Shown piece by piece: positions 23,869 through 58,770 of a DNA stretch of 64,000 nucleotides; position 1 is the first letter of the stretch; every line of letters begins with the position of its first letter. The notes under the pieces are model-generated. The model was not told where the DNA came from. It worked only from the letters and a program-made list of their open reading frames with translations, and made no database searches. A program made the translations under genes and the position numbers. The DNA comes from Methylibium sp. Root1272 (GTDB lineage: Bacteria; Pseudomonadota; Gammaproteobacteria; Burkholderiales; Burkholderiaceae_C): assembly GCF_001425905.1 (NCBI RefSeq), contig NZ_LMDY01000012.1:311734-375733 (forward strand), given 5' to 3'.

Positions 23869-23874
23869 GTAGTC

Positions 23875-35538: not shown

Positions 35539-35543
35539 TGACC

Positions 35544-36938
35544 TCACCGCGCGGTGTCGCGGGCCGTGGGATGCAGCTCGTACACCGACGAGAAGTCCAC
35601 GTCGCGGGCCACGTAGATGCCGACGATGCCGCCCTGGTTCTGGTAGATCAGCGGCGGGATGCCGATGGTGCTGTCGAGCAGCTTCTCTGCGAGCTTGCTG
35701 GTGTTGGCAGTCGTCGAGGGCAGCACGATGGTGTCGGCGCTGCGGTCGTTGGCCTGGTTCTGGATCACGAGCTTGACCGAGTCGTCGATCAGCGACAGCA
35801 GCATCGCGGCGCCGATGCGTTCGCCCCAGCGGTTGTCGACGTAGCCGTCGACGCCGGATTCGCCGAGCGGGCCGGTGCCCGGTGATTCAATGTCGACGGT
35901 CACGCCGTGCGGCGTGCGCAGCCGGGTCCACAACACCGGGATGCGGACCGTGCCCGGCCGGACCGAGGCGATGCGGTACTCGCCGTCCAGATGCGAGCCG
36001 CGCTCGATCAGCAACACGCGGCCGTCGTCGCTGTAGACATTGCGCTGGACCTGGCACCCGACCATGCCCGAGGTCGCGCTGATCACCTTGGTCTTGAGCG
36101 CGCAGGTGAACGCCGTCCCCTTGGACAGGGTCAGGCTGCGGTTGCCGAGCATCGCGGCGACGACCCGCGGCGTGGCGGACCCCTGCATCTGGCCCCCGAA
36201 GAGCCCCCCTGCCGAGGGCACCCCTGCCGGGGGCGGCAGGCCACCCGCAAGGGGGTTCACAAGGGACGCGCCGTCGCCTGCCATCGTCGGCTCACCCTGG
36301 GAAGTCGCTGCGGCGGCCGACGCGTTGAGCGTTGCGAGCAGGCCCTGGAGCTGGCGCTGGTAGTCCTCGAGATTGCGGCGCGTCTGGTCCAGCGGATCGG
36401 CCGGATCCGGTGCCCGTGCGTCGGGCCCTGTCGGGGTTGCGGCGACGGCGGCCTGCTGCCGGCCGGGGGCCTCCGGACGGGTGGACACCAGCAGGACGGG
36501 GGCATCCTCCGGGAGGGTGGGGCGGGTTCCCCCGTTGGCCGGAGATGCCGCTGCTTGACCCGTTCGGCGCACGCCGATCGGCTCTGCGGCCTCGGCCACT
36601 GTCGGCTCAATCGCCGGGATGCGCGGCGGGACAGTCGGTGCAGACGCCGCCTTGGCTGGGACGGCCATGTCGAGCGTGCGCGGCTGGCCCGTCGCAGCAG
36701 CCGGCCGGTCGCGAGTCGGCTGGGCGTCGTCGGCCGGCTTGCCGCTGGACGCGAAGCGCTGGATCGAGAACGCCGACACGGCGATCAGCGAGCCGACGAG
36801 GAGGACGACTGCGACCAGCCCCTTCTTCGACCACGGCGGCCGCGCCGCTTCGGCGACGTTGGGAATGCCCGGCTCGCCCGGCAGCGGCTCGATGCGGTCG
36901 GCCGGCGGGCCGGCGGAGGGCCTCGGATCGTCACTCAT
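35544..36938 (-). CDS. virB10: VirB10 channel protein
   Basis: 464 residues. A cytoplasmic N-terminus and one TM helix (KKGLVAVVLLVGSLIAVSAF, 38-57) are followed by a Pro/Ala-rich periplasmic linker and a C-terminal VirB10/TrbI beta-barrel domain (about 265-460: LSKGTAFTCALKTKVISATS, RGSHLDGEYRIASV, PVLWTRLRTPHGVTVDIESP). It spans both membranes to form the outer core with VirB9. Its start overlaps the virB9 stop region by 8 nt. Confidence 0.94.
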   Translation of the reverse strand: MSDDPRPSAGPPADRIEPLPGEPGIPNVAEAARPPWSKKGLVAVVLLVGSLIAVSAFSIQRFASSGKPADDAQPTRDRPAAATGQPRTLDMAVPAKAASAPTVPPRIPAIEPTVAEAAEPIGVRRTGQAAASPANGGTRPTLPEDAPVLLVSTRPEAPGRQQAAVAATPTGPDARAPDPADPLDQTRRNLEDYQRQLQGLLATLNASAAAATSQGEPTMAGDGASLVNPLAGGLPPPAGVPSAGGLFGGQMQGSATPRVVAAMLGNRSLTLSKGTAFTCALKTKVISATSGMVGCQVQRNVYSDDGRVLLIERGSHLDGEYRIASVRPGTVRIPVLWTRLRTPHGVTVDIESPGTGPLGESGVDGYVDNRWGERIGAAMLLSLIDDSVKLVIQNQANDRSADTIVLPSTTANTSKLAEKLLDSTIGIPPLIYQNQGGIVGIYVARDVDFSSVYELHPTARDTAR

Positions 36939-37860
36939 GGCGGGGCTCCTGCGCGGTTGCCCGGGTCGTCGCCGGCGCCGAGACAGCGTGTTCCGCCCTC
37001 AACGATCGCCGTACGCCCGGCACGGTGGTCGACTCGACGGGCGGCACGCCGTCGATGTCGAAGGCTTCGTTCCACAGACCGACGACGGCCGATCCGGCGC
37101 GCAGCACGAGGCGTCGGCTGACGCGATCGACGACGAGCAGCTCGTCTTCCATCCGCGCGTTGACCAGCGACTCGCCGCCGTCACCGAGCACGTGGAACAC
37201 CGCCGGAATCTCGCGGTTGCCCGGGAAGCGCAGGTAGGTGAACCGACCGTCGTCGAACACCAGTGTCGGCACGATGTCCGCGGAACCCTTGCCCTCGGCG
37301 ATCGAGTAGCTCGTGTTGAGCACCTGGGGTTTGGCCTTGATGCGCTCGGCCACGAGCTCGGCGGCCGTCGGGGCCGGCGCGACCGGAATCGGTCCAGGGC
37401 GCAGCGCCAAGCCGGGATCGCGCAAGGGGTTTGAGGCCAGAGGCCGCTGCGTCGGCGCCCGGACGACCAGGCGGTATACCGCGGGCCTGGGATCACCGTC
37501 GGCCAGCGGCACGAAGCGGAAGGCGTGGGTCCGTCGATCCGTCACGACCGCCAGGTTGTTCGGTGCGGAGGCCGTCGACTTGGGTTTGACGAAGATGTTG
37601 CGACCACCAGGCTGGGTCGCGATGCACCAGGCGGCGTCCGGCTTCGCGCAGTCGCCGCCGAGGCCGGCACCCACCTCGGTGATCGCTTCGTCGGCATCGA
37701 GGACGACATGCGTCACGATGCCGCGCTTGACCGGCACGGTGACGACGGCCTGGGCGTCGTAGCTCACCTCGCGCAGGCGCGGGTCGCTCTGGGCGGCGCC
37801 GGTCGTCGGCCCAAGCAGGGCCGCAGCAGCCAGCAGCGTCGTCGTGCCGGTGGCTTTCAT
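36931..37860 (-). CDS. virB9: VirB9 outer-core protein
   Basis: 309 residues with a Sec signal peptide (MKATGTTTLLAAAALLGPTTGAA). VirB9/TrbG features: DPRLREVSYDAQAVVTVPVK at the mature N-terminus, NNLAVVTDRRTHAFRF, and a C-terminal domain with LVFDDGRFTYLRFPGNREIP and VRRLVLRAG-like region (SRRLVLRAGSAVVGLWNEAF). Partners VirB10 and the OM lipoprotein. ATG 37860 overlaps the virB8 stop. Confidence 0.94.
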   Translation of the reverse strand: MKATGTTTLLAAAALLGPTTGAAQSDPRLREVSYDAQAVVTVPVKRGIVTHVVLDADEAITEVGAGLGGDCAKPDAAWCIATQPGGRNIFVKPKSTASAPNNLAVVTDRRTHAFRFVPLADGDPRPAVYRLVVRAPTQRPLASNPLRDPGLALRPGPIPVAPAPTAAELVAERIKAKPQVLNTSYSIAEGKGSADIVPTLVFDDGRFTYLRFPGNREIPAVFHVLGDGGESLVNARMEDELLVVDRVSRRLVLRAGSAVVGLWNEAFDIDGVPPVESTTVPGVRRSLRAEHAVSAPATTRATAQEPRHE

Positions 37861-38627
37861 GGCTTGGCTCCTGGGACGGTGTTGATCTCGGGGTCGGAGC
37901 GGTAGGCCGTCACCACGAAACCGAAAGGGTTTTCGAGCCGGTCGCGCTCCTTGGCGAGCACCTTGGGCTGGTACTGGTAGACGACGCTGGCAACGTGGCG
38001 CGTCGTGACGTCGGGCAGGTTCCGCTCGGCGAGGCGCACGACCTTGTCGTAGGTGACCGTGGCGTCCGATCGGTTGCCGCTGCGACCGGATGGCGTGAGC
38101 CGGACCCCGACGATCTGGATGCGCCATTCCTCGGCAGCGCCGATCTTCTTCTGCAACGCGCCGTCGCCCTCGAACTGGCGGTTGTAGTCGGCAAACACCG
38201 TTGACGCCGCCATGCGCGCGACCTGGTCGAAGTCGCGCTGCAGGAACATCCAGCTGTAGCCCTCGCGGGCCCGTACGAAGGTCGCGAGGTTGTGCTTGTC
38301 GAGCGCCTCCAGCGGTGGAATCGTCTCGACGGCCAGGCGCTGCTGGATCGTCGTCTCGCCGGTGACGCGGTCGACGACGATCGGCACTTCCACGACGCGG
38401 CGCAGTGGGCCCTGCGCAAAGACGGCCGCGATGCCGAGCAGGCCCAGCATCATGCCGACCCCAGCGACCCACCAGGCGCGGCGCTCCGACCGTTCGAGCA
38501 TCAAGGCCCGATCGACCTCCCAGTTGCGGTTGGCGGCGAGGGCGTCGTCGTCCTCGTCGGTCAAGGGGCGCCGCGGCCATGCGGCGGCTCCGACCGGCGG
38601 GCTGCCGGCCCCGATGACGGCACTCAT
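37857..38627 (-). CDS. virB8: VirB8 inner-membrane assembly protein
   Basis: 256 residues. N-terminal cytoplasmic part, one TM helix (WWVAGVGMMLGLLGIAAVFA, about 51-70), then the NTF2-like periplasmic VirB8 domain (ETIPPLEALDKHNLATFVRA, SWMFLQRDFDQVARMA, VASVVYQYQP, RLENPFGFVV). The ENPFGF-type motif is a VirB8/TrbF hallmark. Coupled to virB9. Confidence 0.94.
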   Translation of the reverse strand: MSAVIGAGSPPVGAAAWPRRPLTDEDDDALAANRNWEVDRALMLERSERRAWWVAGVGMMLGLLGIAAVFAQGPLRRVVEVPIVVDRVTGETTIQQRLAVETIPPLEALDKHNLATFVRAREGYSWMFLQRDFDQVARMAASTVFADYNRQFEGDGALQKKIGAAEEWRIQIVGVRLTPSGRSGNRSDATVTYDKVVRLAERNLPDVTTRHVASVVYQYQPKVLAKERDRLENPFGFVVTAYRSDPEINTVPGAKP

Positions 38628-38639: not shown

Positions 38640-39335
38640 CTAGGGCAGGTAGTCGGCGATGCGACCGGTGCGGCCCAGCATCTCGTACTGCCGCTCGCGG
38701 TCGCGCGAACGGGCGATGCGCTCGTCGCTGTCGGCCAGGCCCTGCAGCATCTGGATCTGGGACACCTCATGCGCCAGCAAGGCGTTTTCGGCGCCGACGC
38801 GGGCCTGGATCTCGAGGATCGACTTCTGATCGGTCGTGGCGTCGATCTGGTCCATCAAGCCTTGAATCTGCGCCAGTCGGCCGGCCGCCGACTTCATCGC
38901 ATCCTGCAGCACGCCCTTGTACTGGTAGGGCTCCGCCAAACTCGCCTGGCACGAACTGCGGCTGCTGCCCGAGAGGTCCATGCAGTTGTAGATCAGCGTC
39001 GCGTCGCGCAGCGCCTTGGCGGTACCCGTCAGGCCGGCGTAGCCTGAGCCGTGGACCGCGTTGACCACCGTGTAGGCCTCGGCCGGAACGTAGTTGCGCA
39101 GCTGCGGGTTGTTGAGGACGTTGCCCAGGTTCCGCACGCCATTGATGCTGGCGAGCTGGTTCTGCAGCTGCGTGATCTGCTGCAGTTGGTTCTGGATCTT
39201 CGTGATGTCGTTGACCACCTGCTGCACGGTCTGCGCGAGGTTGGCCACGTCGATGACCGGAATGCCGCCGGCGTGGGCGCCGCTGGTCGCCAATGCGGTG
39301 AGCAGTGCAGCGGTGATGCGAAGTCGATGCTTCAT
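38640..39335 (-). CDS. virB5: VirB5-like minor pilus protein
   Basis: 231 residues with a Sec signal peptide (MKHRLRITAALLTALATSGAHA). The mature protein is mostly helical with Gln-rich heptads (TQLQNQLASINGVRNLGN) typical of VirB5/TrbJ, which sits at the pilus tip. A conserved-looking Cys pair (YNCMDLSG, SSCQASL) may form a disulfide. Start at 39335 with AGGCTCGC upstream. Lies between virB6 and virB8. Confidence 0.87.
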   Translation of the reverse strand: MKHRLRITAALLTALATSGAHAGGIPVIDVANLAQTVQQVVNDITKIQNQLQQITQLQNQLASINGVRNLGNVLNNPQLRNYVPAEAYTVVNAVHGSGYAGLTGTAKALRDATLIYNCMDLSGSSRSSCQASLAEPYQYKGVLQDAMKSAAGRLAQIQGLMDQIDATTDQKSILEIQARVGAENALLAHEVSQIQMLQGLADSDERIARSRDRERQYEMLGRTGRIADYLP

Positions 39336-39360
39336 GCGAGCCTCCCAGGCGTGGGTTGAA

Positions 39361-40449
39361 TCAGGCGCGGCCTCGAAGGGCAGCGAGCTTGTAGGCGGCG
39401 GTGCGGACGTAGCCATAGCCTTGTCGGGCCATGGCAGTGGTGCCCGTCGCGGCCATCGGCGCGAGGCGGTTTCCGACGGCGGTCGCGGCGCTGCTGACCG
39501 CCCGCGGTAGGCCGGCGCCAGCCCGAATGACGCCCCCGGCCGTCGGCGGCGCAGCGGGGCGTGACAAGGCGGCCGACCTGAGCCCGGCGACCATGAGCGC
39601 GTTCTGGACCATCTGGAAGCCCTGTTGGACCGCGGCGCCACCGGTCAAGGCAGAGGCAAGGGACGGTGCCTGGAAGCAAAGGATCCCCATCAAGACCATG
39701 AGCACGCAGTACCGGATCGCCTCACCCAGCACGTTGAACGTCGCTCCGAGGAACCCACCGCCGCTCTGGATTGCCGCGAACATCTGTTGACCCATGTAGG
39801 CGCTGAGGCCCAATGCGAAGAAAGCGAACCAGGTGAGCACGACCGCGTTCAGCAGCATCGACAGCCAACTGTCGAAGAAGCGGACGGTCGGTCGCCAGGC
39901 CAGGCCGAAGATGAAGAGGGGGCCGATCGCGATGAGGAAGGTCAGGAGCAGCTTAGACAGCGTGACCACGAACAGCGCGATGCACAGGAAGATCACCGAC
40001 CCCATCGAGAAGATCGCCGCGGCAAGCACGAGGTCGAGTCGGAACATGCTCGCGTCCTTCATGATGTCGGCCACTTGCGCGCTTGCATCGTCATTGAATC
40101 GATCCAGCAATGCATACGGCGAGCTGATCGTGGCTGGGTCAGCCGCGGCTGGAAGGAAAGTGGTTGCCACTCCCATGGCCAAGGCGTTGGCTGTCTCAGC
40201 GACGTTCGAGACGTAGAAGCCGGACTGAAGCGCGAAGGTGAGGATGAGCCCGATCTTGAACACCTTCCACAAGAAGGTCGGAACCGACTCGGGAACTTCG
40301 TTTCGCAGGACGGCCCAGCCGTACAAGGCCACCCAGAGAGTCATCGCGGTCAGCACGACGGGGGTCAACGCGCTCATCAACGCGGACACGACGCCGAGCG
40401 CGTAAGTGCTCAGGATCGCATCGAAGCGGGCACCCATCCAAGCAAACAC
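39361..40449 (-). CDS. virB6: VirB6/TrbL polytopic channel protein
   Basis: 362 residues with six or more TM helices in the first 270 residues and a soluble Ala/Arg-rich tail. Family features: WVALYGWAVLRNEV, FLWKVFKIGLILTFALQSGF and a central LLTFLIAIGPLFIFGLAWRP motif (VirB6 'IGP' segment). It forms the inner-membrane DNA path. Placed between the small exported protein and virB5, matching related T4SS operons. Confidence 0.92.
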   Translation of the reverse strand: MFAWMGARFDAILSTYALGVVSALMSALTPVVLTAMTLWVALYGWAVLRNEVPESVPTFLWKVFKIGLILTFALQSGFYVSNVAETANALAMGVATTFLPAAADPATISSPYALLDRFNDDASAQVADIMKDASMFRLDLVLAAAIFSMGSVIFLCIALFVVTLSKLLLTFLIAIGPLFIFGLAWRPTVRFFDSWLSMLLNAVVLTWFAFFALGLSAYMGQQMFAAIQSGGGFLGATFNVLGEAIRYCVLMVLMGILCFQAPSLASALTGGAAVQQGFQMVQNALMVAGLRSAALSRPAAPPTAGGVIRAGAGLPRAVSSAATAVGNRLAPMAATGTTAMARQGYGYVRTAAYKLAALRGRA

Positions 40450-40461: not shown

Positions 40462-40890
40462 TCACTGAACGGCGTCGTACGGCAGGTTCGCCGGCGGCCG
40501 CGCGTGCATGTCGACGCACTTGCTGCCGATGTCCGGGTATTGACACCAAAGCCAGGTCGGACCGCGCTTCGCGATCCAGAGCCGAGACAGCTTCTTTGTT
40601 CCGTAGCTTGATGCACGGCATGTCGTCGGACGCGCAAACGGCTCGGTGCACTCCCGCAAGCCATCGGTCGTCTCGACCATGTGCCACGGCCCGGCGTTGC
40701 AGCCCGCCTCCGCTGCGCATGGGCGTGACTTGGATGCGGGCCCCGCCACCGGAACGGGAGGTAGCTCGACGCGTCTTGATCCGTCCGGCATGACCTTCAC
40801 CGCCTCATTGCCCTTGACGTACTGAGCGGAGGCTGGGGCGGCGGCAAGCGCGCAGAACGTCGCTGCCATGGCGAACTGAAGCAGTTTCAT
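40462..40890 (-). CDS. Small exported Cys-rich protein of the T4SS operon
   Basis: 142 residues with a Sec signal peptide (MKLLQFAMAATFCALAAAPASA). Mature part has at least six cysteines (RPCAAEAGCNAG, LRECTEPFARPTTCRASS, WCQYPDIGSKCV), suggesting disulfide bonding in the periplasm. No family recognised. ATG 40890 overlaps the virB4 stop, and it precedes virB6, a position often held by small periplasmic helper or entry-exclusion proteins. Role unproven. Confidence 0.75.
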   Translation of the reverse strand: MKLLQFAMAATFCALAAAPASAQYVKGNEAVKVMPDGSRRVELPPVPVAGPASKSRPCAAEAGCNAGPWHMVETTDGLRECTEPFARPTTCRASSYGTKKLSRLWIAKRGPTWLWCQYPDIGSKCVDMHARPPANLPYDAVQ

Positions 40891-43373
40891 GCTGCTCTCC
40901 TCGAGTTTCTGGACTTGCGATCCTGAACCTCGCGCAGCAGGACGGGAAGCCACTGAAACGCATCGTCACCATGCCGTGCGCGGATGCCGTCGAGCAGCGC
41001 GACGTTGTCGGTCGTGGCCGACAGCACGGTGATGAAGTCGTCCAACCCGGACAGGTCGAGCTCGCAGATCGCGCTCGCGTGGCCCTGCTTGACCAGGAAG
41101 CGCCTTCCGCCCTGGGAGCCCAGGCTGCGCACGATGTCGAACTCGGCCAGGCTCAACCCGAAGCCTTCGACGTACTCCTCGCGGACCGCTTCAGGGTTGG
41201 CCAGGAAGATCTTGGTCACGCTCTGCTCGATCATGGTCCGGCCGATCGGGTGGCGCAGCACGTCCGACGGGCTTTGCGTGTCGAAGATGCCCAGGCCGTT
41301 CTGCTTGCGGATCGTCTTCTGCTTCTGCTTGGCGAAGTCGCTGAAGATCGGGTGGTCGAGCGCCTTCCAGAACTCCGAGATCACGTAGATCAGCCGCTCG
41401 CCGTTCACCAGCTCTTCCATGAGCTGCAGCAGGTACATCATCACCGGCGTGCGGACCTCAGGCAGGTCCAGAAACTCGGTGGTGTCGAAGCCGATCACCG
41501 GCGCAGCCTGCAGGTCCTGCAGGCGGTCGTCGGCCTGGTCGAACACCCAGCCGAGCGCGCCACCCTGGCACCAGCGGCCGAGCCGCTCGAACAGGCTGTT
41601 CTCGCCGGTCTTGGGCAGGTTCTGCCGCAGCGTCGAGAAGCGCCGCAACGGCGCCGGCATCAATGCGACCGCGCGCACCGCATCGGCGATCGCCCGCTCG
41701 TCGGACGGCAGCAGCGGCAGGGCCGGGGTCTCGAGGCAGGTGCGGACCAGCTGTTCCCAGAACTGCAGGCGCGCCGGCGTCGGCTCGCGTTGCAGTGGGT
41801 TGCAGCCGGTCGGCTGACCGGCTTCGAGCGTGAAGTAGCGGCCACCCAGGGCACGGATCGCGATCTCGCAGCCCCGGTCGAGGTCGAACAGCACCAACCG
41901 CGGCGCAGGCGTCCACTTGCGCGTGAGCGTCAGCAGGAACATCTCCAGCGTCGTCTTGCCGACGCCCGTCGAGCCGATGATCAGCGTGTTGCCCGGCAGC
42001 TTCCGGTCGGCCGAGTCCTCGCCCTCGGGGCTGTGGTGCAGGTTCAGGTAGTAGGGCTGGCCGGACGGCGTGCGCAGCAGCGCCAGGGCCTCGCCCCAGG
42101 GGTTGCCGTCGCGCTTGCCGCGCGCGAAGTTGTGGCCGCTGGCCAGCGCCGCGAAGGCACGCGACGACAGCTTGGCATCGCGTGGCCGCCACTGCCAGTT
42201 GCCCGGCATCTGCGCGAGCCAGGCGGCATCGGCGACCAGGTCCACCGGGGCCATCTGAAGGCTCGACGCCTCGCCGACGGCGCCGATGGCCTGCGCGGCG
42301 CGCCGGCCGGCATCGGCCACGCTGTCGCCGAAAACCACCAGGCTGTAGTGGTACTCGCCCATGCAGAACTGGCCGTCGCCCAGCTCGTTCAGCGCCACGT
42401 CCATCTCGGCCACCTGCGTGGCGACCACGTCGTCGCTGGCGATCAGCTGGTCGCGCTGCAGCTCGAGCGCGGCGATCGCCTCGCGCCGCGGCAGAACCGA
42501 GAAGCTCTGCGTCTCGATGAACTCGCTGGCTTCGTACAGCAGGGCATCGAGGATGCCGGGCTCGACCGCATCGGCGTACTCCTTGATGTCGACCAGCGCG
42601 GCGTAGCGGCGCTGGTCGCCCTGCCGCAACTCCAGCTTGTCGCCGCCGAAGCACAGCCTGGCCGTCGGCAGGCTGCGGTAGAGCGGTCCGGCGGTCGCCG
42701 GGACGGGACGCCAGACGCCGTTGACGAGGTAGCCGAGGAACTCGGCGACTTCCGAGTAGCTGCGGCCACCCTGCCGACGCAGCCCCAGCAGTTCGGGGCC
42801 GAAACCGCGCAGCACCCGGGCGACCAGTGCCGAGCGCTCGTCCATCAGCCGCAGCGCGTCGGCCTGGGCGGCGGCGATGGCCGCGCGCGAGCGCTGTGTC
42901 GGCTGGAGCGCCCGGCTCACCCGCGAGACGTTCGGCCGGTACACCAGCGTCAGGTAGAGCTCGTTGCTCATCATCCGACGTTGACCCAGGCGCGCCTGGT
43001 AGGCGGACGACAGGTCGCGGGCGAAGCCGGGCTCGGCGGGCTCCTGCAGCCGATCCTCGACGACGCGGTGCAGCCGATGCGTCCAGACCGCCCACTGGCC
43101 ACCGGCCAGGTTGCGCAGCAGGCTGCACAGCGCCTCGTGCCGTTCGGCGATAACCTGTTCGTCGGTGCATTCGAAGGGAATGCCATCCAGGCGCCAGACC
43201 CGCAGGTAGTCGCCACCACGGGTGATGACGTCATGGGGACCGACGAGCGACGAGAACGGCACGAAACGCGCCAGCGGGTTCTCGCGCAGCGCCTGCGCCC
43301 AGTAGCGTGGCAGCAGCGGCGCCGGCCGGTGCTTGCGCGCCGCCTTGCGGCTCGATTCAGCGGTGCCAAGCAT
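40887..43373 (-). CDS. virB4: VirB4 ATPase
   Basis: 828 residues from the ATG at 43373, inside virB3. CagE/TrbE/VirB4 N-terminal domain (LREN..ARFVPFSSLVGPHDVI, IPFECTDEQVIAERHEALC). The C-terminal RecA-like ATPase has Walker A IIGSTGVGKTTLEMFLL and the later Walker B region ERLIYVISEFWKALDHP; the usual Asp-Glu of Walker B is ISEF here. It energises pilus biogenesis. Full length for the family. Confidence 0.95.
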   Translation of the reverse strand: MLGTAESSRKAARKHRPAPLLPRYWAQALRENPLARFVPFSSLVGPHDVITRGGDYLRVWRLDGIPFECTDEQVIAERHEALCSLLRNLAGGQWAVWTHRLHRVVEDRLQEPAEPGFARDLSSAYQARLGQRRMMSNELYLTLVYRPNVSRVSRALQPTQRSRAAIAAAQADALRLMDERSALVARVLRGFGPELLGLRRQGGRSYSEVAEFLGYLVNGVWRPVPATAGPLYRSLPTARLCFGGDKLELRQGDQRRYAALVDIKEYADAVEPGILDALLYEASEFIETQSFSVLPRREAIAALELQRDQLIASDDVVATQVAEMDVALNELGDGQFCMGEYHYSLVVFGDSVADAGRRAAQAIGAVGEASSLQMAPVDLVADAAWLAQMPGNWQWRPRDAKLSSRAFAALASGHNFARGKRDGNPWGEALALLRTPSGQPYYLNLHHSPEGEDSADRKLPGNTLIIGSTGVGKTTLEMFLLTLTRKWTPAPRLVLFDLDRGCEIAIRALGGRYFTLEAGQPTGCNPLQREPTPARLQFWEQLVRTCLETPALPLLPSDERAIADAVRAVALMPAPLRRFSTLRQNLPKTGENSLFERLGRWCQGGALGWVFDQADDRLQDLQAAPVIGFDTTEFLDLPEVRTPVMMYLLQLMEELVNGERLIYVISEFWKALDHPIFSDFAKQKQKTIRKQNGLGIFDTQSPSDVLRHPIGRTMIEQSVTKIFLANPEAVREEYVEGFGLSLAEFDIVRSLGSQGGRRFLVKQGHASAICELDLSGLDDFITVLSATTDNVALLDGIRARHGDDAFQWLPVLLREVQDRKSRNSRRAA

Positions 43374-43689
43374 CGTGGGCTCCTCGGTAAGCCATGGGCG
43401 CGTAGCTCCGCGCCTGCCAGAAGCGTCGGTTGCGGTCACACAGCCCGAGCTTCGCAGCGACGAACATCTGCCGGAAGCGCTGGTCGTCGCGCCGCGTCAC
43501 GAAGCGCATCCACAGTAGGACCGGCACGGTTGCCAGCACCACGGCCGCGGCCAGCCAGCCGCTGACCAGGATGCCGCCCCACATCACCAGCAGCATCGCC
43601 GTACCTGCCAGCACGACCAGCGGCACGAGCGGGACGCCCAGCTTCATGGCCGGCCGCGTCGCGCCCTTGTAGATCGCTTCGGCATGCAT
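43357..43689 (-). CDS. virB3: VirB3 inner-membrane protein
   Basis: 110 residues: IYKGATRPAMKLGVPLVPLV then paired TM helices (20-66) and RFRQMFVAAKLGLCDRNRRF. This is the VirB3/TrbD pattern (N-terminal KGATRP motif). It overlaps the virB4 start by 17 nt. Confidence 0.93.
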   Translation of the reverse strand: MHAEAIYKGATRPAMKLGVPLVPLVVLAGTAMLLVMWGGILVSGWLAAAVVLATVPVLLWMRFVTRRDDQRFRQMFVAAKLGLCDRNRRFWQARSYAPMAYRGAHDAWHR

Positions 43690-43699: not shown

Positions 43700-44002
43700 T
43701 CAGGTGCTCGGCGCGACGATGTAGCTGGCGAACGCCGCGGCGCCGCCGACCAGCGTGCCGCCGATCAGCACGTTCGCGACATCGCTCAGCCGCGCGCCTT
43801 GGAAGATCATCTTGAAGCCGGCCCAGATGATCGCGATCGTCACGACGGCGATCGAGATCGTCACCAGGATGGCGTTGACGTTCGTGACCGTCGTGTTGAC
43901 CCGCTCGAAGCCCTGGGCGCGGGCGACGCCGGACGCGACGACCAGGGTCAAGGCGATCAGCCGGTGCGGCAGCGACGACGGGGCGGGGTGTGGGAATGGC
44001 AT
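43700..44002 (-). CDS. virB2: VirB2 pilin
   Basis: 100 residues from the ATG at 44002. Signal peptide through about residue 30 (VVASGVARAQ), then two hydrophobic segments (AILVTISIAVVTIAIIWAG; LIGGTLVGGAAAFASYIV) separated by FKMIFQGARLSDV. Standard TrbC/VirB2 pilin architecture. The Shine-Dalgarno GGAGACCTCC lies just upstream. Confidence 0.92.
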   Translation of the reverse strand: MPFPHPAPSSLPHRLIALTLVVASGVARAQGFERVNTTVTNVNAILVTISIAVVTIAIIWAGFKMIFQGARLSDVANVLIGGTLVGGAAAFASYIVAPST

Positions 44003-44034
44003 GGAGGTCTCCTCGGAGAGCTGGGCGTGATGCG

Positions 44035-44505
44035 TCAGCGAGCGGTTGCCATGCGCCGCGCCGCCTCGACGACACGGTCGACGTAGCCGTGCCGAAAGCC
44101 GGTGACGGCATTGCCGCTGTAGTAGCAGGACAGCGCCCGGCGCAGCGCGACTTGCGGCGTCGCATCGCCGCCATGGCGATCGAAGCACTCGCCAAGGACC
44201 GTCTGCATCGCCGTCAGGCTCGTGCAGGCGTCCAGTGCCGATGCGTCGGTGAGGCCCAGGCGCTCGAAGTTGTGCCGATTGATCTGTGCCAGGCCGACGC
44301 TGTAGTTCCAGCCGTCGGACCGCAGCCGCTCGATCGTCGCCAGCGCCTCGGCAGCATGGCGCGGCTGGCGCTCCAGCGCGCCGCCGAACACGCCGATCGC
44401 GTGCGGGTTGAATCCGCTCTCGACGTCGACCAGGGCGCGGGCCGTGATGCCGTCGACCTGCGGCGCGCAGGCCGCGACCAAGGCAAGGAAGGTGGCCATG
44501 TCCAT
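44035..44505 (-). CDS. virB1: VirB1-like lytic transglycosylase
   Basis: 156 residues. SLT fold with catalytic Glu in ALVDVESGFNPHAIG (residue about 29) and SVGLAQINRHNF (GLxQIN motif), plus LRRALSCYYSGN. It opens peptidoglycan for T4SS assembly. No clear Sec signal peptide on the annotated start; the first 20 residues are hydrophobic but belong to the fold. Confidence 0.93.
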   Translation of the reverse strand: MDMATFLALVAACAPQVDGITARALVDVESGFNPHAIGVFGGALERQPRHAAEALATIERLRSDGWNYSVGLAQINRHNFERLGLTDASALDACTSLTAMQTVLGECFDRHGGDATPQVALRRALSCYYSGNAVTGFRHGYVDRVVEAARRMATAR

Positions 44506-44515: not shown

Positions 44516-45091
44516 TCAGGGCGTCAGGTCGAAGGTGGCCGGCGGCGGCAGCGACGCCAGCCAGGCGGCATGGTCGTCGTCGAAGCGCGTGTCCCACTGG
44601 CCGAGTTGCGCTTTGGCGGCCGGGCTGAACTGGGTCACCGTGCCGCCCGACCGGGCCCACCAGGTGCGGGCGAACAGGGTGCCGTCGATCGAGACGCTGA
44701 CCACGCCGCTGTAGTCGCAGGTGTAGACCGGGCCGAGCATGCGGGTGTACTGCGGCGGGCAGCGGTAGGGTGCGTAGGCCCAGGCGTGCGTGGCCGAGTT
44801 GCCTGCCCCGGCCATGCTGCAGCTCGGAAACGACCTGCCGCGGGCGAGGTCACGGAACAGCTGCCTGATCGGCGGCACGCACTGCGGGACCGCGCGCCAG
44901 TTCGGTGCGGCGAGGCACAGCAGCACCAGGCAGCCATCGACCGCCTTCGCAGGGCCTGGCGCACCCATTGACAGCAGCGCGACGGCGACGCTCAGCAGCG
45001 TCGCGTGTGTCCTTGTGCAAGACCCGCCACGGCACTCGCAACGGTCCTTGGCATGGGCTCGGGCCGCGTCTAGGATAAGGCTGCTTCGCAT
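44516..45091 (-). CDS. TrbM/KikA-like exported protein
   Basis: 191 residues from the ATG at 45091 (MRSSLILDAARAHAK). A late signal-like hydrophobic segment (HATLLSVAVALLSMGAPGPA) precedes the TrbM/KikA-type core VDGCLVLLCLAAPNWRAVPQ, then CVPPIRQLFRDLARGRSFPS, which matches the CLC...W..C.P....F....RG..FP.C family pattern. TrbM-like proteins are mating-pair accessory factors. First gene of the minus-strand transfer operon, divergent from the rhodanese-like gene. Confidence 0.83.
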   Translation of the reverse strand: MRSSLILDAARAHAKDRCECRGGSCTRTHATLLSVAVALLSMGAPGPAKAVDGCLVLLCLAAPNWRAVPQCVPPIRQLFRDLARGRSFPSCSMAGAGNSATHAWAYAPYRCPPQYTRMLGPVYTCDYSGVVSVSIDGTLFARTWWARSGGTVTQFSPAAKAQLGQWDTRFDDDHAAWLASLPPPATFDLTP

Positions 45092-45230
45092 GCTGAGTCC
45101 TCGCTGCTGACGTCGTCCGGGGAGGAGTCCTTCGGCGCCTCGCAAGGCCCCGCAAGGTCACTCTAGGTTCGATCGCCACGCGGGCTCATGCTGGATTCAG
45201 GGTGTTTTCCTGCTGTCTCGAGGAGGTCCG

Positions 45231-46271
45231 GTGCTCACGACCATGGCGTCTCTCGATCCGCTCGTGCATCCGCATCAGCTGGAGGTTCAGGACTTCGACG
45301 ACTACGCGCTCGTGATCGATGCGCGCAGCGCCGAGGCGTACGCGCAGGATCGCGTGCCCGGGGCGATCCATCTGCCGGTGCATCTCGCGTCGGCGGTGTC
45401 GTCACCGCCCGGCGAGTTGCCGCCGGGTCTCGCAGCACATGTCGCGGCGCTGGACCGACAGGCGGCCATCCTCGTCTACTGCGGCCGGGGCGGACTCGAC
45501 AGCGAGGTCTGGGCCCGGCCCTTGAGGCGGGCTGGCTGGCAGGTCGACGTGCTCGGCGGCGGCTGGCCGAACTACCGCCGCTGGGTGGATGCCGGGCTGG
45601 AGCGCTTGCCGCGCGCGCTGACCTTCCGGCAGCTCGTCGGTCCGCCGGTCGGCGGTGTGTGCCGCTTCCTGCGCGTGCTGAGGCGACGCGGCGAGCAGGT
45701 GCTCGACGTGGCGAGCCTCGCAGGGCAACACCTGGTGCCCGGATTGAGCGTCACGGGGGACCGGCCCGTGTCACAGGCCAGCTTCGAGGGGGCCTTGCTC
45801 GATGCGCTGCGTCGCTTCGACCCGGCCCGTCCGGTCTGGGTCCGGTGCGGTGGTCAGTTGCCGAGCCAGTTGAGGTTGCCGCCGGCTTTCGCAGAGGCGA
45901 TGCAGCGGGCCATTGCGATGAAGATCGAAGCACCGGTCGAGGCGCGTGCCCGGCTGTGGCGCCACAAGCTCCGCGCGACGCGCACGCCGGTCGACGCCGT
46001 GCTGCTGGCGCTCGGGGCTCAAGTGCCGTCGCGGACCGCATCGATCGCGACCGCTGATGTGGTCACCGACTGGCCGGGCGGCGCCACCGATCTGCTGGCA
46101 GCGTTGATCGAAGACCGCATCGATCCTCTCGATGCAAGATTGGCAAGCGCAAGGCCCGCCGAAGTCGTTCGCCTGGCTTCGCTGGACGTAGGCACCGTGT
46201 CCGCAGTCGTCGCAGCTTGGCTGAAAGCACCCCCCGCCGCTCGCGGCGGCTGGGCTCAGAGCAGACCGTAG
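45231..46271 (+). CDS. MnmH/SelU-derived rhodanese protein with degenerate P-loop
   Basis: 346 residues; GTG start with AGGAGG 5 nt upstream. N-terminal rhodanese domain (ALVIDARSAEAYAQDRVPGA, active Cys84 in LVYCGRGG). Downstream VLGGGWPNYRRWV and GEQVLDVASLAGQHLVPGLS align with the tRNA 2-selenouridine synthase layout (GGxxxYR...; G..VLDLE.LA.HRGS.xG). At the nucleotide-binding loop it has GPPVGGVCRFL (137-147) in place of GxTGxGKT, so the Walker A Lys/Ser is absent. About 100 extra residues follow. It probably keeps a rhodanese-like activity but not the ATP-dependent step; its role in this element is unknown. Confidence 0.75.
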   Translation: MLTTMASLDPLVHPHQLEVQDFDDYALVIDARSAEAYAQDRVPGAIHLPVHLASAVSSPPGELPPGLAAHVAALDRQAAILVYCGRGGLDSEVWARPLRRAGWQVDVLGGGWPNYRRWVDAGLERLPRALTFRQLVGPPVGGVCRFLRVLRRRGEQVLDVASLAGQHLVPGLSVTGDRPVSQASFEGALLDALRRFDPARPVWVRCGGQLPSQLRLPPAFAEAMQRAIAMKIEAPVEARARLWRHKLRATRTPVDAVLLALGAQVPSRTASIATADVVTDWPGGATDLLAALIEDRIDPLDARLASARPAEVVRLASLDVGTVSAVVAAWLKAPPAARGGWAQSRP

Positions 46272-47038
46272 AGCTTGGCGATGCGGACTGCGGCACGCCG
46301 GTTCGGCGTGCCCAGCTTGGCGTTGATGCGCTGGAACCGGCAATCGATCGTCTTCGCCTCGGTCTGCAACCCGGCAGCGATCGCTTTGCTGCTGTGGCCG
46401 GCGTCTTCGTGCCGAAGCAGGTCGAGTTCCGCTTCGGTGATGCGCGAGCGGGCGATCAGCTCGGCCTTGATCTGGCCTTGCCACCAGCCATGCAGCTCCA
46501 TCGCCAGGCAGCGCGCCAGCAGCTTCACGGTCCGATAGCCTTCGTCGTCGAAGTAGCCCTCGGTGGCCGAACCGAGACAGAGCACACCGACGCGCGAGTG
46601 GCCGGCGGCTGACGGCGTCGGCGCGATCAGGGTGGAACGGAAGCCGTAGGCGCCGGCAGCCTCCACGAAGGCGCGCTCGCGAGGCGACCGCGGCATGAGC
46701 TCGCTCGAGCGGGTTGGCTCCGAGGCCTGCATCGCGTAGCGCAGCCAGGGATCGTCGGCAAACCAGCCATCGCGCGCATACGCCGTGCCCCATGCGGGAT
46801 CGCAGGCCAGCAGGCAGCGGTACGAGGCAAGCGTGGCGTCGTCGCGGATGAAGCTCGTGAACCATCCGGCGTCGGCCCCCAGATGCTCGACAGCTTGTCG
46901 CAGCAGGTCGACCGCAGCTGGCTTGGACGTCGCCAACTCGATGCGACCGGCGATCTCGAGCGCCCGCGACGAGTAGCCCGGCGCACTCGCATGCTCGCGC
47001 AGGCTCGCTTGGTCAAGCGCGTTCGGGCAGCAGCTCAT
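46256..47038 (-). CDS. LuxR family solo regulator
   Basis: 260 residues from the ATG at 47038. N-terminal autoinducer-binding-like domain (DLLRQAVEHLGADAGWFTSF, then WFADDPWLRYAMQASEPTRS). The usual W of the P-x-x-W pocket motif is replaced (PTRS), so the ligand may differ or be absent. C-terminal GerE/LuxR HTH (RITEAELDLLRHEDAGHSSK, then AIAAGLQTEAKTIDCRF and RRAAVRIAKLYGLL). No luxI lies nearby. It overlaps the upstream 146-residue protein by 26 nt and converges on the MnmH-like gene (16-nt overlap). Confidence 0.88.
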   Translation of the reverse strand: MSCCPNALDQASLREHASAPGYSSRALEIAGRIELATSKPAAVDLLRQAVEHLGADAGWFTSFIRDDATLASYRCLLACDPAWGTAYARDGWFADDPWLRYAMQASEPTRSSELMPRSPRERAFVEAAGAYGFRSTLIAPTPSAAGHSRVGVLCLGSATEGYFDDEGYRTVKLLARCLAMELHGWWQGQIKAELIARSRITEAELDLLRHEDAGHSSKAIAAGLQTEAKTIDCRFQRINAKLGTPNRRAAVRIAKLYGLL

Positions 47039-47453
47039 CGCCGTGGCGCCGCAAGTGGCTGTGCAGCATCGGATGGTCGAAGCGGACCGGGTCGCTGTCG
47101 CACCAGCGCGCGAACGCGTCGCGCCGCTCGAACACCATCGCCACCGTGACGAGGGCGCCCAGTGGACGCCTCTGCGTGCGCTCGACGAACAGGCCTTCCG
47201 GCACCGCATGCAAGGCAAACGCGACGGCACCGTCGTCGCTCGCGAGCCGGACTGCATCCACAGAGCGCGATGAGTCGCGGGGCGTGGGCTTCGACAAGGC
47301 GCGACGTTGACGCCGCTCGTGGAGGAGCGCGGCCTTCGGCCCGAGCGGCGCGATCTCGCTGGCATCCAGCTCGGCGGTCCGGCGCTGGCGGCAAGCCATC
47401 GGCTTGCGCCCGGCATGCTGCGCCGTGGCGCCGCAGGAGGTCTCTGTGCCCAT
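47013..47453 (-). CDS. Hypothetical protein coupled to the LuxR solo
   Basis: 146 residues, MGTETSCGATAQHAGRKPMA... with a basic N-terminal half (RQRRTAELDASEIAPLGPKA, HERRQRRALS) and a folded-looking C-terminal half (DAVRLASDDGAVAFALHAVP, EGLFVERTQRRPLGALVTVA, MVFERRDAFARWCDSDPVRF). No family recognised. Its 3' end overlaps the luxR-type gene start, so both are translated together; an accessory or anti-activator role is a guess. Confidence 0.65.
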   Translation of the reverse strand: MGTETSCGATAQHAGRKPMACRQRRTAELDASEIAPLGPKAALLHERRQRRALSKPTPRDSSRSVDAVRLASDDGAVAFALHAVPEGLFVERTQRRPLGALVTVAMVFERRDAFARWCDSDPVRFDHPMLHSHLRRHGDELLPERA

Positions 47454-48189
47454 CTGCGCTCCCTGATTGCACGGCCGCTGAAGCCGCCTGTGATGGTGGC
47501 TGCCGATGGGCCGGAGCAATGATGACCCTCTCAGGCGCGGATTGATCCAAGCTTTCGATTTGCTGTCAATCACTGCATCCCACTCGAATCGTGACGGCTG
47601 GTTAACGGCTCATGCAATGTCTTGCATGCGTCCAAGCCAGGTCAGAGCGCCCGTGTACGGGCGCTGGACATCGGCCGGGCTGTGGGCTGACGCCCTGCGC
47701 ACGGCCGGACCCCTCGTCGCACCGGTCGGCGTGGCCCGCATCCGCCGGTCGCCTCCTGTGCGAACCGTAGCGCCGCGCGCGCGGGCACCAGGGCCTTTCG
47801 CGGCATAAACGGCCGCCTTCCCACCGCCGCTGCGCGCCGGCGGGCCCCTTCCATTTATTCCACGTTGCCCTGGCGCCCGCGCTTCATCGCGGCGCTGTCG
47901 GTCTCGCACGGCGACCGACGAATGCGGGGCAGGGCACAGCCCGACACCGGACCTGACGCCGAGGGATCAACCGCCACGAACGGCTCCCTCGGAACTTTGG
48001 GCAGGGGCCGGGAGGTGGAAGGGGCAACAGCGTGAGAAACACCAAGGATCGATCGAGCCGCGCGGTGCGTCTGTGGCGCGGAGCGGGGGCTGCGCGGTGT
48101 CGGCGCTTCGTGCTGCCGCGGGCCGGCGTGCCGCCGTGAGGCGGCGGCTCGCCCTCCAAACGCATCGCATTCAACCCAAGGAAATCATC
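47454..48189. other. 736-bp intergenic region between the LuxR unit and the large parB
   Basis: Divergent promoters must lie here. Visible structures: a perfect dyad CATGCAA-TGTC-TTGCATG (47611-47628), a candidate operator for the LuxR unit, and a GCCGCC-GTGA-GGCGGC hairpin (48130-48145) about 45 nt upstream of the parB start. No convincing gene is seen. Confidence 0.6.
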
Positions 48190-50097
48190 ATGGAACACAG
48201 GAAAGAACTGCTGGGCATCGAGCTGTCCCAGCTGGTGACGTCACCGTTCAACGTGCGTCGGCACAGCAGCGGTCAGGTGGAGGAGCTCGCCGCACTCATC
48301 GACGCGCAGGGTCTGCTGCACAACCTGGTCGTGACCGAGCAGGTGGTCGGCAAGGGTCGGGCACGTCAGGTCCGGTTCGCGGTGGCGGCGGGCGAGCGGC
48401 GTCGCCGTGCGCTGATGCTGTTGCAGCAGCGCGGCCGGCTGCCGACCCCCTTCGTGGTGCCGTGCGAGCTGGTGCCGCCCGAACGGGCCCGCGAGGTGAG
48501 CCTGGCGGAGAACAGCGGACGCGAGGCCATGCACCCGGCCGACGAGTTCGACGCCTTCAAGGCGCTGATCGATGAGGGCAAGGGTGTCGAGGACGTGGCC
48601 GCGCGTTTCGGGGTGTCGGTGCTGACCGTGCAGCGACGGTTGCGGCTGTCGAACGTCTCGTCTCGCCTGCTGGCGCTGTACCGCGAGGACGGCATCAACC
48701 TCGACCAGCTGATGGCCCTGGCCCTCAGCGAAGACCATGCCGCACAGGAGCGGGCGTGGTTCGAGGCGCAGCCCTGGGACCGTACGCCGGCCGTGCTGCG
48801 GCGGGTGCTGACAGTCGGGCAGGTCGAGGCCTCGCGGGATGCGATGGCGCGCTTTGTGGGCATCGAGGCCTACGAGGCGGCGGGTGGCGTTGTTCGCCGC
48901 GACCTGTTCGACGACGACTGCAGTCGCTATCTGGCTGACCTGGACCTGCTGCGACGGCTCGCGTACGAGAAGCTGGGCACCCTGGCTGCCGAGGTGCGTG
49001 GCGAAGGCTGGGCCTGGGTCGAGCCGCGGCTCGACGTGGACAGCCCCGCGCTGCGGCAGTTCACGCCGGCCGAGCACATGGCCCGCGTTCCGACGGCGCA
49101 GGAACAGGCCGACCTGGACGAGCTCGATGCGCGCAGTGCCGAGCTGGAGCGTGAGGTCGATGCGCTCGATGAAGCAACCGAGTGGTCGGCCGACGATGCG
49201 GAACGCATCGACCTGGAGGAACAGGCCATCGACCAGCGCCGCAAGCTGATCCTGGCGGGCTTGCGGACGTGGTCGCCCGTATTGATGTCGAGGGCCGGGG
49301 CGCTCGTGACGATCAGTCGCGAGGGCGAAGCCGAGGTCTTGCGGGGGCTGTTGCGCGAAGGGGATCGGAAGGCCTTGGTGGCTGCACGGCACAAGGCAGC
49401 GCGGCAGGTCGGTCCCGAACGGACCGAGGCGCCCAGTCCAGGGGAGGGGAGCCGTTCAGGCTGTAGCGATAGCCTGCTGCGTCGGCTGGCGGCGCACCGC
49501 ACCATGGCGCTGCAAGTGACGCTGGCACGTCACACGCAGGCGGCCTTGGCCTCGCTGGCCCATGTGTTCGTGCAGGGGCTGTTTGGCGAGGACTTCCATC
49601 GCGTGCGCTCGCCGCTGCAGGTGTCGCCGGTCTACTGCCGCAGCGCGCTCGAGGTGGCGGCGGACGACCTCAAGACCGGCCGGGCTGCTCAGCAGTTCGA
49701 CGCGCTCACGGAAACATGGAGAGCTCGGTTCCCAGCCGAGCAGGGCGAATGGTTGGGGTGGTTGATCGGTCTGCCGCAGAGTGAGCTGTTGGAGCTGTTG
49801 TCGCTGTGCGTGGCGTCGACGGTCAACGCGCTCCCCGCTGCGGGTGGACCGCATGAAACCGATGCGCTGAGTCGGGCGCTCGGTCTGGATATGGCCGAAT
49901 GGTGGGAGCCGTCTGCGACAAGCTATCTGAACCACGTGCCGAAGAGCCTGATCCTGCAAGCCTTGCAGGAAGCGGGCGTGGGCGAGGGAGCGGAGAAACT
50001 CGCCACCATGAAGAAGACCGAACTGGTCACTGCAGCAGCCGCACGGTTGGCTGGGACGCGGTGGATGCCTGCGGTGTTGCGGATCGCGCCCGACTGA
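48190..50097 (+). CDS. Large ParB/RepB-family plasmid partition-like protein
   Basis: 635 residues from the ATG at 48190. N-terminal ParB/Srx domain (IELSQLVTSPFNVRRHSSGQ, VRFAVAAGERRRRALMLLQQ, LAENSGREAMHPADEFDAF), HTH (GVEDVAARFGVSVLTVQRRL, RLSNVSSRLLALYR), then a long helical domain and a C-terminal segment (HVPKSLILQALQEAGVGEGA, KLATMKKTELVTAAAARL). This large type is frequent in ICEs and plasmids and may act in stability or replication control rather than simple segregation. It is the second ParB in the window. Confidence 0.9.
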   Translation: MEHRKELLGIELSQLVTSPFNVRRHSSGQVEELAALIDAQGLLHNLVVTEQVVGKGRARQVRFAVAAGERRRRALMLLQQRGRLPTPFVVPCELVPPERAREVSLAENSGREAMHPADEFDAFKALIDEGKGVEDVAARFGVSVLTVQRRLRLSNVSSRLLALYREDGINLDQLMALALSEDHAAQERAWFEAQPWDRTPAVLRRVLTVGQVEASRDAMARFVGIEAYEAAGGVVRRDLFDDDCSRYLADLDLLRRLAYEKLGTLAAEVRGEGWAWVEPRLDVDSPALRQFTPAEHMARVPTAQEQADLDELDARSAELEREVDALDEATEWSADDAERIDLEEQAIDQRRKLILAGLRTWSPVLMSRAGALVTISREGEAEVLRGLLREGDRKALVAARHKAARQVGPERTEAPSPGEGSRSGCSDSLLRRLAAHRTMALQVTLARHTQAALASLAHVFVQGLFGEDFHRVRSPLQVSPVYCRSALEVAADDLKTGRAAQQFDALTETWRARFPAEQGEWLGWLIGLPQSELLELLSLCVASTVNALPAAGGPHETDALSRALGLDMAEWWEPSATSYLNHVPKSLILQALQEAGVGEGAEKLATMKKTELVTAAAARLAGTRWMPAVLRIAPD

Positions 50098-53453: not shown

Positions 53454-53463
53454 ATGCCAATTC

Positions 53464-54114: not shown

Positions 54115-54124
54115 CGCAACCTAC

Positions 54125-54826: not shown

Positions 54827-54875
54827 TGCGGGTGCGTTATCTGTGTCCACTGCGGAAAGCCGCTGACTAGGGCTT

Positions 54876-56041: not shown

Positions 56042-56095
56042 GGAGAATTGACGCTTCGGAGGTGAGGCGGGTGTTAGATGAAACTTGGGGATCTA

Positions 56096-57175: not shown

Positions 57176-57198
57176 GTTCACCGCCGTGACCGTTGACT

Positions 57199-58710: not shown

Positions 58711-58770
58711 GAATGATCCTCCGTAGAGCCGCGAGTGATGGCGGCGGGATGGTCTCTTGGGCTGGGCGCG

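Follow-up and report, generated by a model that had tools for sequence, protein, structure and literature searches.

Background and known systems

The closest described relatives of the gene studied here encode the tRNA 2-selenouridine synthase MnmH (SelU, YbbB; NF008752, TIGR03167), in which a rhodanese domain is fused to a P-loop-type domain. According to the available sections of PMC4830565, selenation requires the rhodanese cysteine (Cys97 in Salmonella) and geranylation requires the Walker A lysine. The P-loop change K155A abolished geranylation by the chromosomal G67E form. The same sections describe an insertion of about 33-36 aa that is conserved in MnmH and missing from single-domain rhodaneses, with geranylation-raising mutations in it or close to it. 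The tRNA-binding site of SelU has been attributed to the N-terminal rhodanese half (PMC12177912, available part).

LuxR-type receptors without a LuxI (LuxR solos) have been linked to transfer or to type IV secretion systems (T4SS), examples being BisR of Rhizobium leguminosarum and VjbR of Brucella (PMC10134790, PMC4338825, available parts). The word "selenouridine" is absent from the main text of these two LuxR-solo reviews. One sentence in the available part of PMC4290994 mentions a selenouridine synthase, an alkane 1-monooxygenase and a LuxR on plasmid pCal35. Within the searches made and the source text available, nothing else relevant was found linking selenouridine synthase with LuxR, T4SS, conjugation, desaturases or islands.

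The window is a stretch of 64,000 nucleotides from Methylibium sp. Root1272. The MnmH-like ORF at 45231-46271 belongs to a P-loop-less class, termed X. It shares with MnmH its ancestry, the rhodanese catalytic Cys, the fused P-loop-type domain (in the model) and 35 of 86 conserved positions. Class X differs in having neither Walker A, insertion nor selD neighbour, in scoring below the curated cut-offs, and in a loop that reads C-[GD]-R-G-G-L-D-S in most rows in place of C-[WF]-R-G-G-x-R-S. Element-borne mnmH genes accompanied by luxR (Collimonas arenae pCal35, Polaromonas JS666 plasmid 2) lie in the same kind of transfer-region place and have the same LuxR family. In contrast to X they keep P-loop, insertion and catalytic loop intact, and their mnmH and luxR are separated by a fatty-acid-desaturase/alkane-monooxygenase-like gene. 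The fold of residues 15-122 or so is like that of the single-domain rhodaneses GlpE (1gmx) and 3gk5 (Z 9.0 and 9.7), active-site Cys included. Unlike these, the window protein has an extra degenerate kinase-like domain, and its sulfurtransferase activity is putative. The LuxR of the window differs from BisR and VjbR in varying together with an MnmH-derived neighbour. By sequence comparison, the jointly varying MnmH-like/LuxR cassette appears to be a new combination of known parts with a putative role in transfer control.

The MnmH-like gene and its surroundings

The following features surround the gene, with profile matches in brackets.

about 19873-20199, relaxase
32423..34723, minus strand, VirD4/TraG coupling protein (PF02534 6.9e-96; NF010472 7e-84, below cut-off)
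34435..35547, minus strand, VirB11-type ATPase (PF00437 1.1e-27)
35544..36938, minus strand, VirB10 (TrbI) (PF03743 2.3e-47)
36931..38580, minus strand, VirB9 (CagX) (PF03524 3.2e-48)
38640..39641, minus strand, VirB5-type T4SS protein (PF07996 1.6e-60)
39361..40449, minus strand, VirB6/TrbL (PF04610 6.9e-27)
40887..43439, minus strand, VirB4 ATPase (PF03135 3e-36)
43357..43689, minus strand, ORF in the VirB3 position (conserved synteny)
43700..44188, minus strand, VirB2/TrbC pilin (PF04956 6.4e-14)
44035..44505, minus strand, VirB1 lytic transglycosylase (NF010438 2.6e-28, below cut-off; PF01464 over cut-off)
44516..45145, minus strand, conserved 209-aa ORF at the head of the virB operon (no Pfam or NCBIfam match)
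45158..45167, TCACTCTAGG box, conserved, 22 bp left of the repeat
45190..45213, divergent promoter region, imperfect inverted repeat GCTGGATTC-N7-TTTCCTGC, candidate operator, conserved at the same place in related loci
45231..46271, plus strand, P-loop-less MnmH descendant (class X), 346 aa, GTG start, GAGGAGG site upstream; rhodanese with Cys84 at about 15-122, P-loop-type fold without P-loop at about 129-335
46256..47416, minus strand, LuxR-type regulator with autoinducer-binding domain and HTH (PF03472 9.2e-11; PF00196 just over cut-off)
48073..50097, plus strand, ParB-like protein, right flank of the variable cassette (TIGR03734 2.3e-15, below cut-off)

The 209-aa ORF is labelled TrbM-like from what we take to be a resemblance, and the ORF at 38640..39641 is presumably VirB5.

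On re-reading, coordinates, frame and motifs of the MnmH-like ORF were exactly those given in an earlier note. YCGRGG carries Cys84, and GPPVGGVCRFL occupies the P-loop position and is followed by GEQVLDVASLAGQHL. The protein has three lysines (231, 246 and 332). A scan of the whole chain found no GK dipeptide and no G-x4-GK[ST], which bears out the claimed absence of GK[ST] and rules out an intact Walker A elsewhere in the protein. NF008752 matched at E 6.5e-44 (150.2 bits against a cut-off of 266; best stretch 67-309 of 346) and TIGR03167 at E 1.4e-29 (103.6 bits against 219.75; stretch 72-247), so that neither curated MnmH cut-off was reached. PF00581 (rhodanese) was the sole Pfam match and was over its cut-off (43.6 against 22.2 bits). 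The homology to MnmH is beyond chance across both domains, and the likeness claimed earlier does extend past the rhodanese. Chance similarity outside the rhodanese is ruled out by the NCBIfam matches and the alignment. A sequence search gave no solved-structure relatives at E 0.01, and no PADLOC family searched matched the protein.

The same genome holds a bona fide mnmH beside selD at C1:98951 (GPTGSAKT, 507 bits against 266). A second P-loop-less paralogue lies at C1:448994, amid the same neighbours in a different T4SS island. All seven X genomes examined, and genome G056, contain another MnmH over the curated cut-off of 266. The X copies score 71-165 bits, and all eight X copies in the seven genomes are below 266. 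The second element of the window's genome (C1:440000-459000, locus L033) has the same virB-TrbM/MnmH-like/LuxR/ParB-like order with the other cassette type. Its VirB4 is 85% identical, and an integrase-domain ORF is found at C1:456423.

The gene order described earlier recurs across class X. VirB4 lies opposite the MnmH-like gene in 22/22 X loci with at least 3.5 kb upstream, and the TrbM-like ORF is present in 23/23 with at least 2.5 kb upstream. The convergent LuxR gene is found in 18/20 X loci with at least 2.5 kb downstream and is missing in L073 and L078. The window has a T4SS, a coupling protein and a relaxase, which makes the proposed location in an ICE plausible. It is not proven. The nearest rightward integrase domain is on the same contig 39 kb past the window.

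Sampling and phylogeny of the family

Relatives were gathered from 299 genomes of the family (30 loci taken), from PLSDB plasmids (5/20 records examined) and from named genomes. The named genomes were scanned with the X alignment as query and the best 80 of 433 relatives were kept. The alignment held 113 loci and six reference rows. Twelve of the 113 loci, matched by eye, were redundant and were dropped (L034, L035, L036, L037, L038, L039, L046, L048, L055, L057, L059 and L063); the near-copies L075/L076 and L082/L085 were retained in the counts. At least 25 X, 45 F and 31 W loci remained. The number of X loci is a floor and classes F and W are unevenly sampled, because the best 80 of 433 were kept for an X query.

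The classes are told apart by the catalytic loop. Class W has YCWRGG, class F has YCFRGG with an intact P-loop, and class X is P-loop-less with mostly YC[GD]RGGLDS. A selD gene was near in 16/31 W, 10/45 F and 0/25 X loci within the DNA examined. The P-loop loss is common to 25 loci, which rules out sequencing error as its cause. Named X hosts are Burkholderiales of the genera Rubrivivax, Methylibium, Piscinibacter, Paucibacter, Rhizobacter, Ramlibacter, Ideonella, Hydrogenophaga and Aquariibacter; the rest are MAGs with less precise names.

A tree of 79 rows (24 X, 42 F, 13 W) was built with IQ-TREE after the P-loop, catalytic-loop and insertion columns had been removed; L114 was left out. 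Class X is monophyletic (99/99; 98% of 200 bootstrap trees) and nested within the P-loop-bearing class F. A starred clade (98/92) around X includes the nine nearest F rows, eight of which have the same TrbM-like ORF (L071 does not). On this tree the X clade is placed as having arisen within the element-borne P-loop-bearing subfamily. The idea that the P-loop-less form might be a conserved clade tied to T4SS clusters was upheld by alignment with true MnmH (at least 25 loci; VirB4 in 22/22). L109 is the earliest-branching X member and has a long branch, a P-loop remnant GCGQS, Gly in place of the Cys and a degenerate insertion. It looks like an intermediate or decayed form.

Matches in a sample of the order (399 genomes, cut-off 1e-55) were found in 41 genomes. 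Among the 12 loci taken, the P-loop was missing only in the window's own locus. The best score beyond the genome's own two copies (3.9e-79) belonged to a P-loop-bearing gene. Class X is likely rare outside the family.

Residues lost and kept in class X

The 86 columns conserved in at least 90% of 80 P-loop-bearing (W and F) rows were compared with 23 X rows, numbered by the aligned L106 row. Thirty-five of the 86 positions, the core of the Cys loop included, are kept in at least 80% of X rows and 51 in fewer. The 51 include catalytic-loop R130, K153, the P-loop, S209, K223, E245, E247, S248, K250, Y287 and H336-Y337. P-loop K183 and T179, together with R130, K153, S209, K223, E245, S248 and K250, are kept in no X row, and some of the 51 are lost only in part (R207, for example, is kept in 74%). 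The losses hit the catalytic loop (R) and the GGYK, HRGS, SQK, EAES and HYDP segments. The catalytic Cys is present in 24/25 X rows, the exception being L109. Walker-like matches are absent from 24/25 X rows, and the single match (L109) is off the P-loop position. The MnmH-specific insertion (about 33-36 aa) is replaced by variable sequence in X; L109 holds a degenerate copy.

The AlphaFold2 model of the window protein (pLDDT 87, pTM 0.87) has two domains. Structure comparison gave moderate Z scores of about 9 to 9.7, with residues 15-122 resembling rhodaneses and residues from about 129 to 335 resembling NMP kinases, dephospho-CoA kinases and other P-loop kinases. A P-loop-bearing class F control model (pLDDT 90) has long helices at 48-60 and 62-81. 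These are the insertion helices of L106, and the window model has only short counterparts at 51-54 and 65-71.

The earlier note held that the protein had shed nucleotide use. The nucleotide-binding signature is indeed gone, but so are the insertion and many conserved positions, and the MnmH P-loop is thought to bind geranyl pyrophosphate (PMC4830565, available sections). The X proteins keep the selenation Cys, have lost the geranylation lysine and further polar positions, and in seven of seven genomes examined occur alongside a proper MnmH. On these grounds, tRNA selenation is very unlikely to be their job.

A tRNA-linked sulfur protein might still bind thiolated tRNA or partner the host MnmH, and thereby alter decoding or act as a dominant negative. 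The ancestor was a tRNA enzyme, the rhodanese Cys is kept, and the rhodanese half has been called the site of tRNA binding in SelU (PMC12177912, available part). Against this, most EAES, HRGS, SQK and HYDP positions are gone, as is the insertion in or close to which the geranylation-raising mutations lie, and P-loop K155A abolished geranylation of the chromosomal G67E form (PMC4830565, available sections). This explanation is considered rather improbable.

Selection on class X

The dN/dS of ten close X pairs, which are not independent of one another, was 0.14-0.35. Over the same ten pairs it was 0.10-0.40 for the C-terminal domain and 0.05-0.67 for the rhodanese half, the upper end coming from pairs in which synonymous changes are few. 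Six F pairs gave 0.08-0.28. Class X is under purifying selection in close pairs. The proposed recruitment for a new function agrees with this: purifying selection on a protein without the enzyme's residues would suit a task other than tRNA selenation. A single open frame covers both domains in 21/25 X genes. L073 and L078 are truncated (238 aa), L069 and L114 are frameshifted (sequencing error possible), L109 has no Cys and L096 has a changed loop. The gene is therefore not indispensable.

The same damaged members, and the long branches inside the X clade, would be expected if the cassette's mnmH had lost its use and its remnants hitch-hiked with luxR and virB. Such a decaying passenger is unlikely in our estimate. 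It is opposed by the dN/dS values, by the open frame in 21/25 loci, by the confident two-domain model (pLDDT 87) and by core rhodanese positions that are 80-100% kept although most other MnmH positions are gone.

The LuxR-type neighbour and the promoter region

The 3' ends of luxR and the MnmH-like ORF overlap by 16 bp. The conserved part of the LuxR ORF is its last 280-320 residues or so; the first 70-100 or so are probably not coding in this frame, and the start is probably internal. A small ORF (47013-47573, minus strand) overlaps the 5' part of the LuxR ORF. It has a conserved-looking C-terminal stretch and counterparts in L033 and L035, which weakly resemble an ORF before luxR in Paraburkholderia caffeinilytica (E 0.05 for L035).

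The neighbour has the features of a LuxR solo. PF03472 and PF00196 are over cut-off, and LuxI (PF00765) was found in 0/8 genomes, in a search whose built-in controls were silent as well. PF00765 was matched in 18/120 family genomes, 12 of them over cut-off. Six positions (TraR numbering) are assumed by us to mark the AHL pocket, and their equivalents were read through a RhlR alignment. W57, Y61, D70, P71 and G113 are kept in 20/20 X proteins and W85 in 0/20. The counts in 15 F loci are 12 for W57, 15 for Y61, 15 for D70, 14 for P71, 15 for G113 and 0 for W85.

Between the virB-side ORF and the MnmH-like gene lie 85 bp with the TCACTCTAGG box and the inverted repeat. The box is a possible -10 of a leftward virB promoter. 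In X subclade B the repeat reads CGATGACTT...AATCATC (9/9). In subclade A, GCTGGATTC is found in 9/12 loci listed; L089 and L096 carry variant forms, and L077 has no repeat. Read against the MnmH tree, the promoter listing shows that repeat type tracks X subclade. As a palindrome the repeat mostly did not reach significance by shuffling (best p 0.01; window p 0.96). No second match with up to three mismatches was found in L090 or L033. One other near match was found in the window (16085) and one, with three mismatches, in L068. The window match is a 24-bp palindrome, GCTGGATTCGACGCCGAATCCAGC (16085-16108), with 10-bp arms and a half-site in common with the candidate operator at 45190. It lies behind a DUF932 ORF and may be a terminator stem, although it has no T run.

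P-loop-bearing relatives with luxR and a desaturase gene

LuxR and a desaturase-like gene were found together by tblastn in 15 of the 45 F loci and either alone in none. No desaturase was found in the 20 X loci with enough flank. All four desaturase-like proteins examined belong to PF00487. On plasmids of Collimonas, Massilia, Caballeronia and Paraburkholderia the mnmH/desaturase/luxR trio adjoins T4SS genes; on Polaromonas JS666 plasmid 2 its neighbours are transfer genes. Two of five plasmids are typed in PLSDB as mobilizable, two as non-mobilizable and one as conjugative. The P-loop-bearing sisters examined are named only mnmH in PLSDB, and this plain naming hides the module. P-loop-bearing genes without luxR lie beside the same virB type in L047, L072 and L106, and in L074 and L053, where the contig limits the view on one side. 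The lineage that lost P-loop and insertion but kept LuxR is also the one without the desaturase; this is one evolutionary event and so a correlation with a sample size of one. A strict rule that loci without desaturase have no P-loop is ruled out, as L047, L072 and L106 keep the P-loop with no luxR or desaturase nearby. In L046, apparently the contig also sampled as L085 (Azohydromonas caseinilytica), two desaturase-like genes (11054-12064 and 13909-14925) flank luxR.

The joint occurrence of LuxR and desaturase in 15 of the 45 P-loop-bearing loci, and singly in none, would suit a signal-making partner. The MnmH-derived protein would stand in LuxI's place and make or modify the LuxR ligand, with the desaturase/alkane-hydroxylase-like enzyme as a second step in P-loop-bearing cassettes. 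The variation of the MnmH-like gene with LuxR, the failure to find LuxI in 8/8 genomes (search controls silent) and the retention of five of six AHL-pocket positions also fit. However, LuxR persists in X without the geranylation P-loop and without the desaturase, and it could read AHLs from other cells. We know of no rhodanese that transfers acyl or prenyl groups. This explanation is judged quite improbable.

A broader form is a new conjugation signalling cassette in which LuxR has an MnmH-descended protein instead of LuxI as its dedicated partner, with a restraint remnant in X and pherotype-like alleles. This also seems quite improbable to us. If it were true, the full cassette of P-loop-bearing MnmH, desaturase/alkane-hydroxylase-like enzyme and LuxR would make and sense a possibly prenyl-derived ligand. 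Class X would have lost the synthetic half, with its MnmH remnant now serving LuxR as a partner for specificity or restraint. Alleles that diverge this sharply would be pherotype- or immunity-like groups, which would fit the genomes with two types.

Joint variation of the MnmH-like gene and luxR

Pairwise distances of the MnmH-like protein correlate with those of LuxR at r 0.75 (25 loci) and with those of VirB4 at r 0.14 (32 loci). Within X, the correlations are 0.81 for LuxR (19 loci) and 0.34 for VirB4 (20 loci), and 0.60 and 0.67 for the flanking TrbM-like (20 loci) and ParB-like (10 loci) proteins. The partial r of MnmH-like and LuxR given VirB4 is 0.80 (18 loci). The X-only distances are without L109, L073 and L078, and L069 was used with its single-frame part. 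LuxR had been described as a neighbour of the gene; its convergent position stands, but it varies together with the MnmH-like gene and is more than a bystander.

L067 and L090 illustrate the pattern. Their nucleotide identity on the left flank is 0.83 for VirB9, 0.80 for VirB6, 0.92 for VirB4, 0.96 for VirB3 and 0.80 for VirB1. It is 0.75 for the TrbM-like gene, 0.52 for the MnmH-like gene, 0.54 for LuxR and 0.81 for the ParB-like gene. The cassettes of the same-type pair L066/L067 are 0.92 and 0.94 identical. At the amino-acid level, ParB-like proteins are 0.73-0.82 identical between loci with cassettes at 0.35-0.40. A cassette this diverged inside better conserved surroundings is best explained by recombination replacement or long-kept polymorphism. 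The synonymous divergence of VirB6 is near that of the cassette (pS 0.51-0.56 against 0.57-0.63 for LuxR), and a VirB6 pS of 0.56 against 0.59 in the cassette speaks against a simple swap. The backbone is thus mosaic in its own right, and instead of exchange the cause could be old polymorphism or rapid change of the proteins.

The VirB4 tree, made by a quick method with long-branch warnings, mixes X and F with seven changes, at least four of them forced by starred branches. The X/F labels are more clustered on it than by chance (3/500 shuffles as low). The mixing mostly rules out co-inheritance of the cassette with VirB4. Two types occur together in the window's genome (window subclade A, L033 B), in the MAG Rhizobacter D1_Bin_37 (L075 A, L087 B) and in Methylibium rhizosphaerae (L077 X, L071 F). 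With two similar ones (L049, L050) plus a third (L051) in G056, the sharing of a genome by different types is only suggestive.

What appears new here is the covariation of the MnmH-like gene and luxR as diverged alleles, which would make them an exchanged or long-kept polymorphic cassette. The covariation of these adjacent genes can also reflect physical linkage alone; the flanks correlate too (TrbM-like 0.60, ParB-like 0.67).

Proposed role

A partner in transfer control best explains where the gene lies, that it varies along with LuxR, and that the repeat is type-specific. We favour this view tentatively, with a little less than even confidence. The pseudo-MnmH would form with LuxR and the operator-like repeat a two-gene VirB control cassette, in which it is LuxR's partner. 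Counting against a control cassette are the truncated, frameshifted, Cys-less and loop-altered members, the loss of luxR as well in L073 and L078, a repeat that is rarely significant as a palindrome and is missing in L077, the P-loop-bearing genes that lie beside the same virB type without luxR, the covariation that linkage may account for, and the synonymous divergence of VirB6.

The protein descends from a P-loop-bearing tRNA 2-selenouridine synthase and very probably makes no geranyl- or seleno-tRNA any more, with the rhodanese fold and catalytic cysteine retained. The cassette differs sharply between elements as a unit. LuxR would bind a small ligand and act at the repeat between virB and the MnmH-like gene, and both would be expressed under its control. 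The MnmH-like protein would be a dedicated partner of LuxR, perhaps an anti-activator-like modulator dependent on a Cys84 persulfide or redox state, and transfer would be tuned or restricted. The persulfide- or redox-dependent modulation is a guess.

The repurposing of a tRNA-modifying enzyme on mobile elements seems to have happened in one evolutionary step (X being one clade), and it can be traced because P-loop-bearing sisters lie on the same kind of transfer module. That the gene varies with LuxR where the VirB4 backgrounds are nearly identical points to a specificity or immunity locus in Burkholderiales conjugation that has gone unrecognised.

Other features of the window

A defence-like cluster is located at 22801-29291. 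It encodes an RmrA-like HTH/M78 protein, an MBL-like ORF (weak RTasMBL/LmuA matches), a fused Prok-E2/ThiF E1/JAB protein and a patatin-like phospholipase. No nucleotidyltransferase was identified in the cluster, which we take to resemble CBASS or Bil-type ubiquitin-like systems. An IS-type transposase (DUF772 and DDE_Tnp_1; 51008-52093) lies between the transfer module and the catabolic cargo. The cargo (52245-63353) is of the aromatic-degradation type and encodes a thiolase, two CoA-transferase subunits, a catechol 1,2-dioxygenase-type enzyme, an aldehyde dehydrogenase, a Rieske/VanA-type oxygenase and a LysR regulator.
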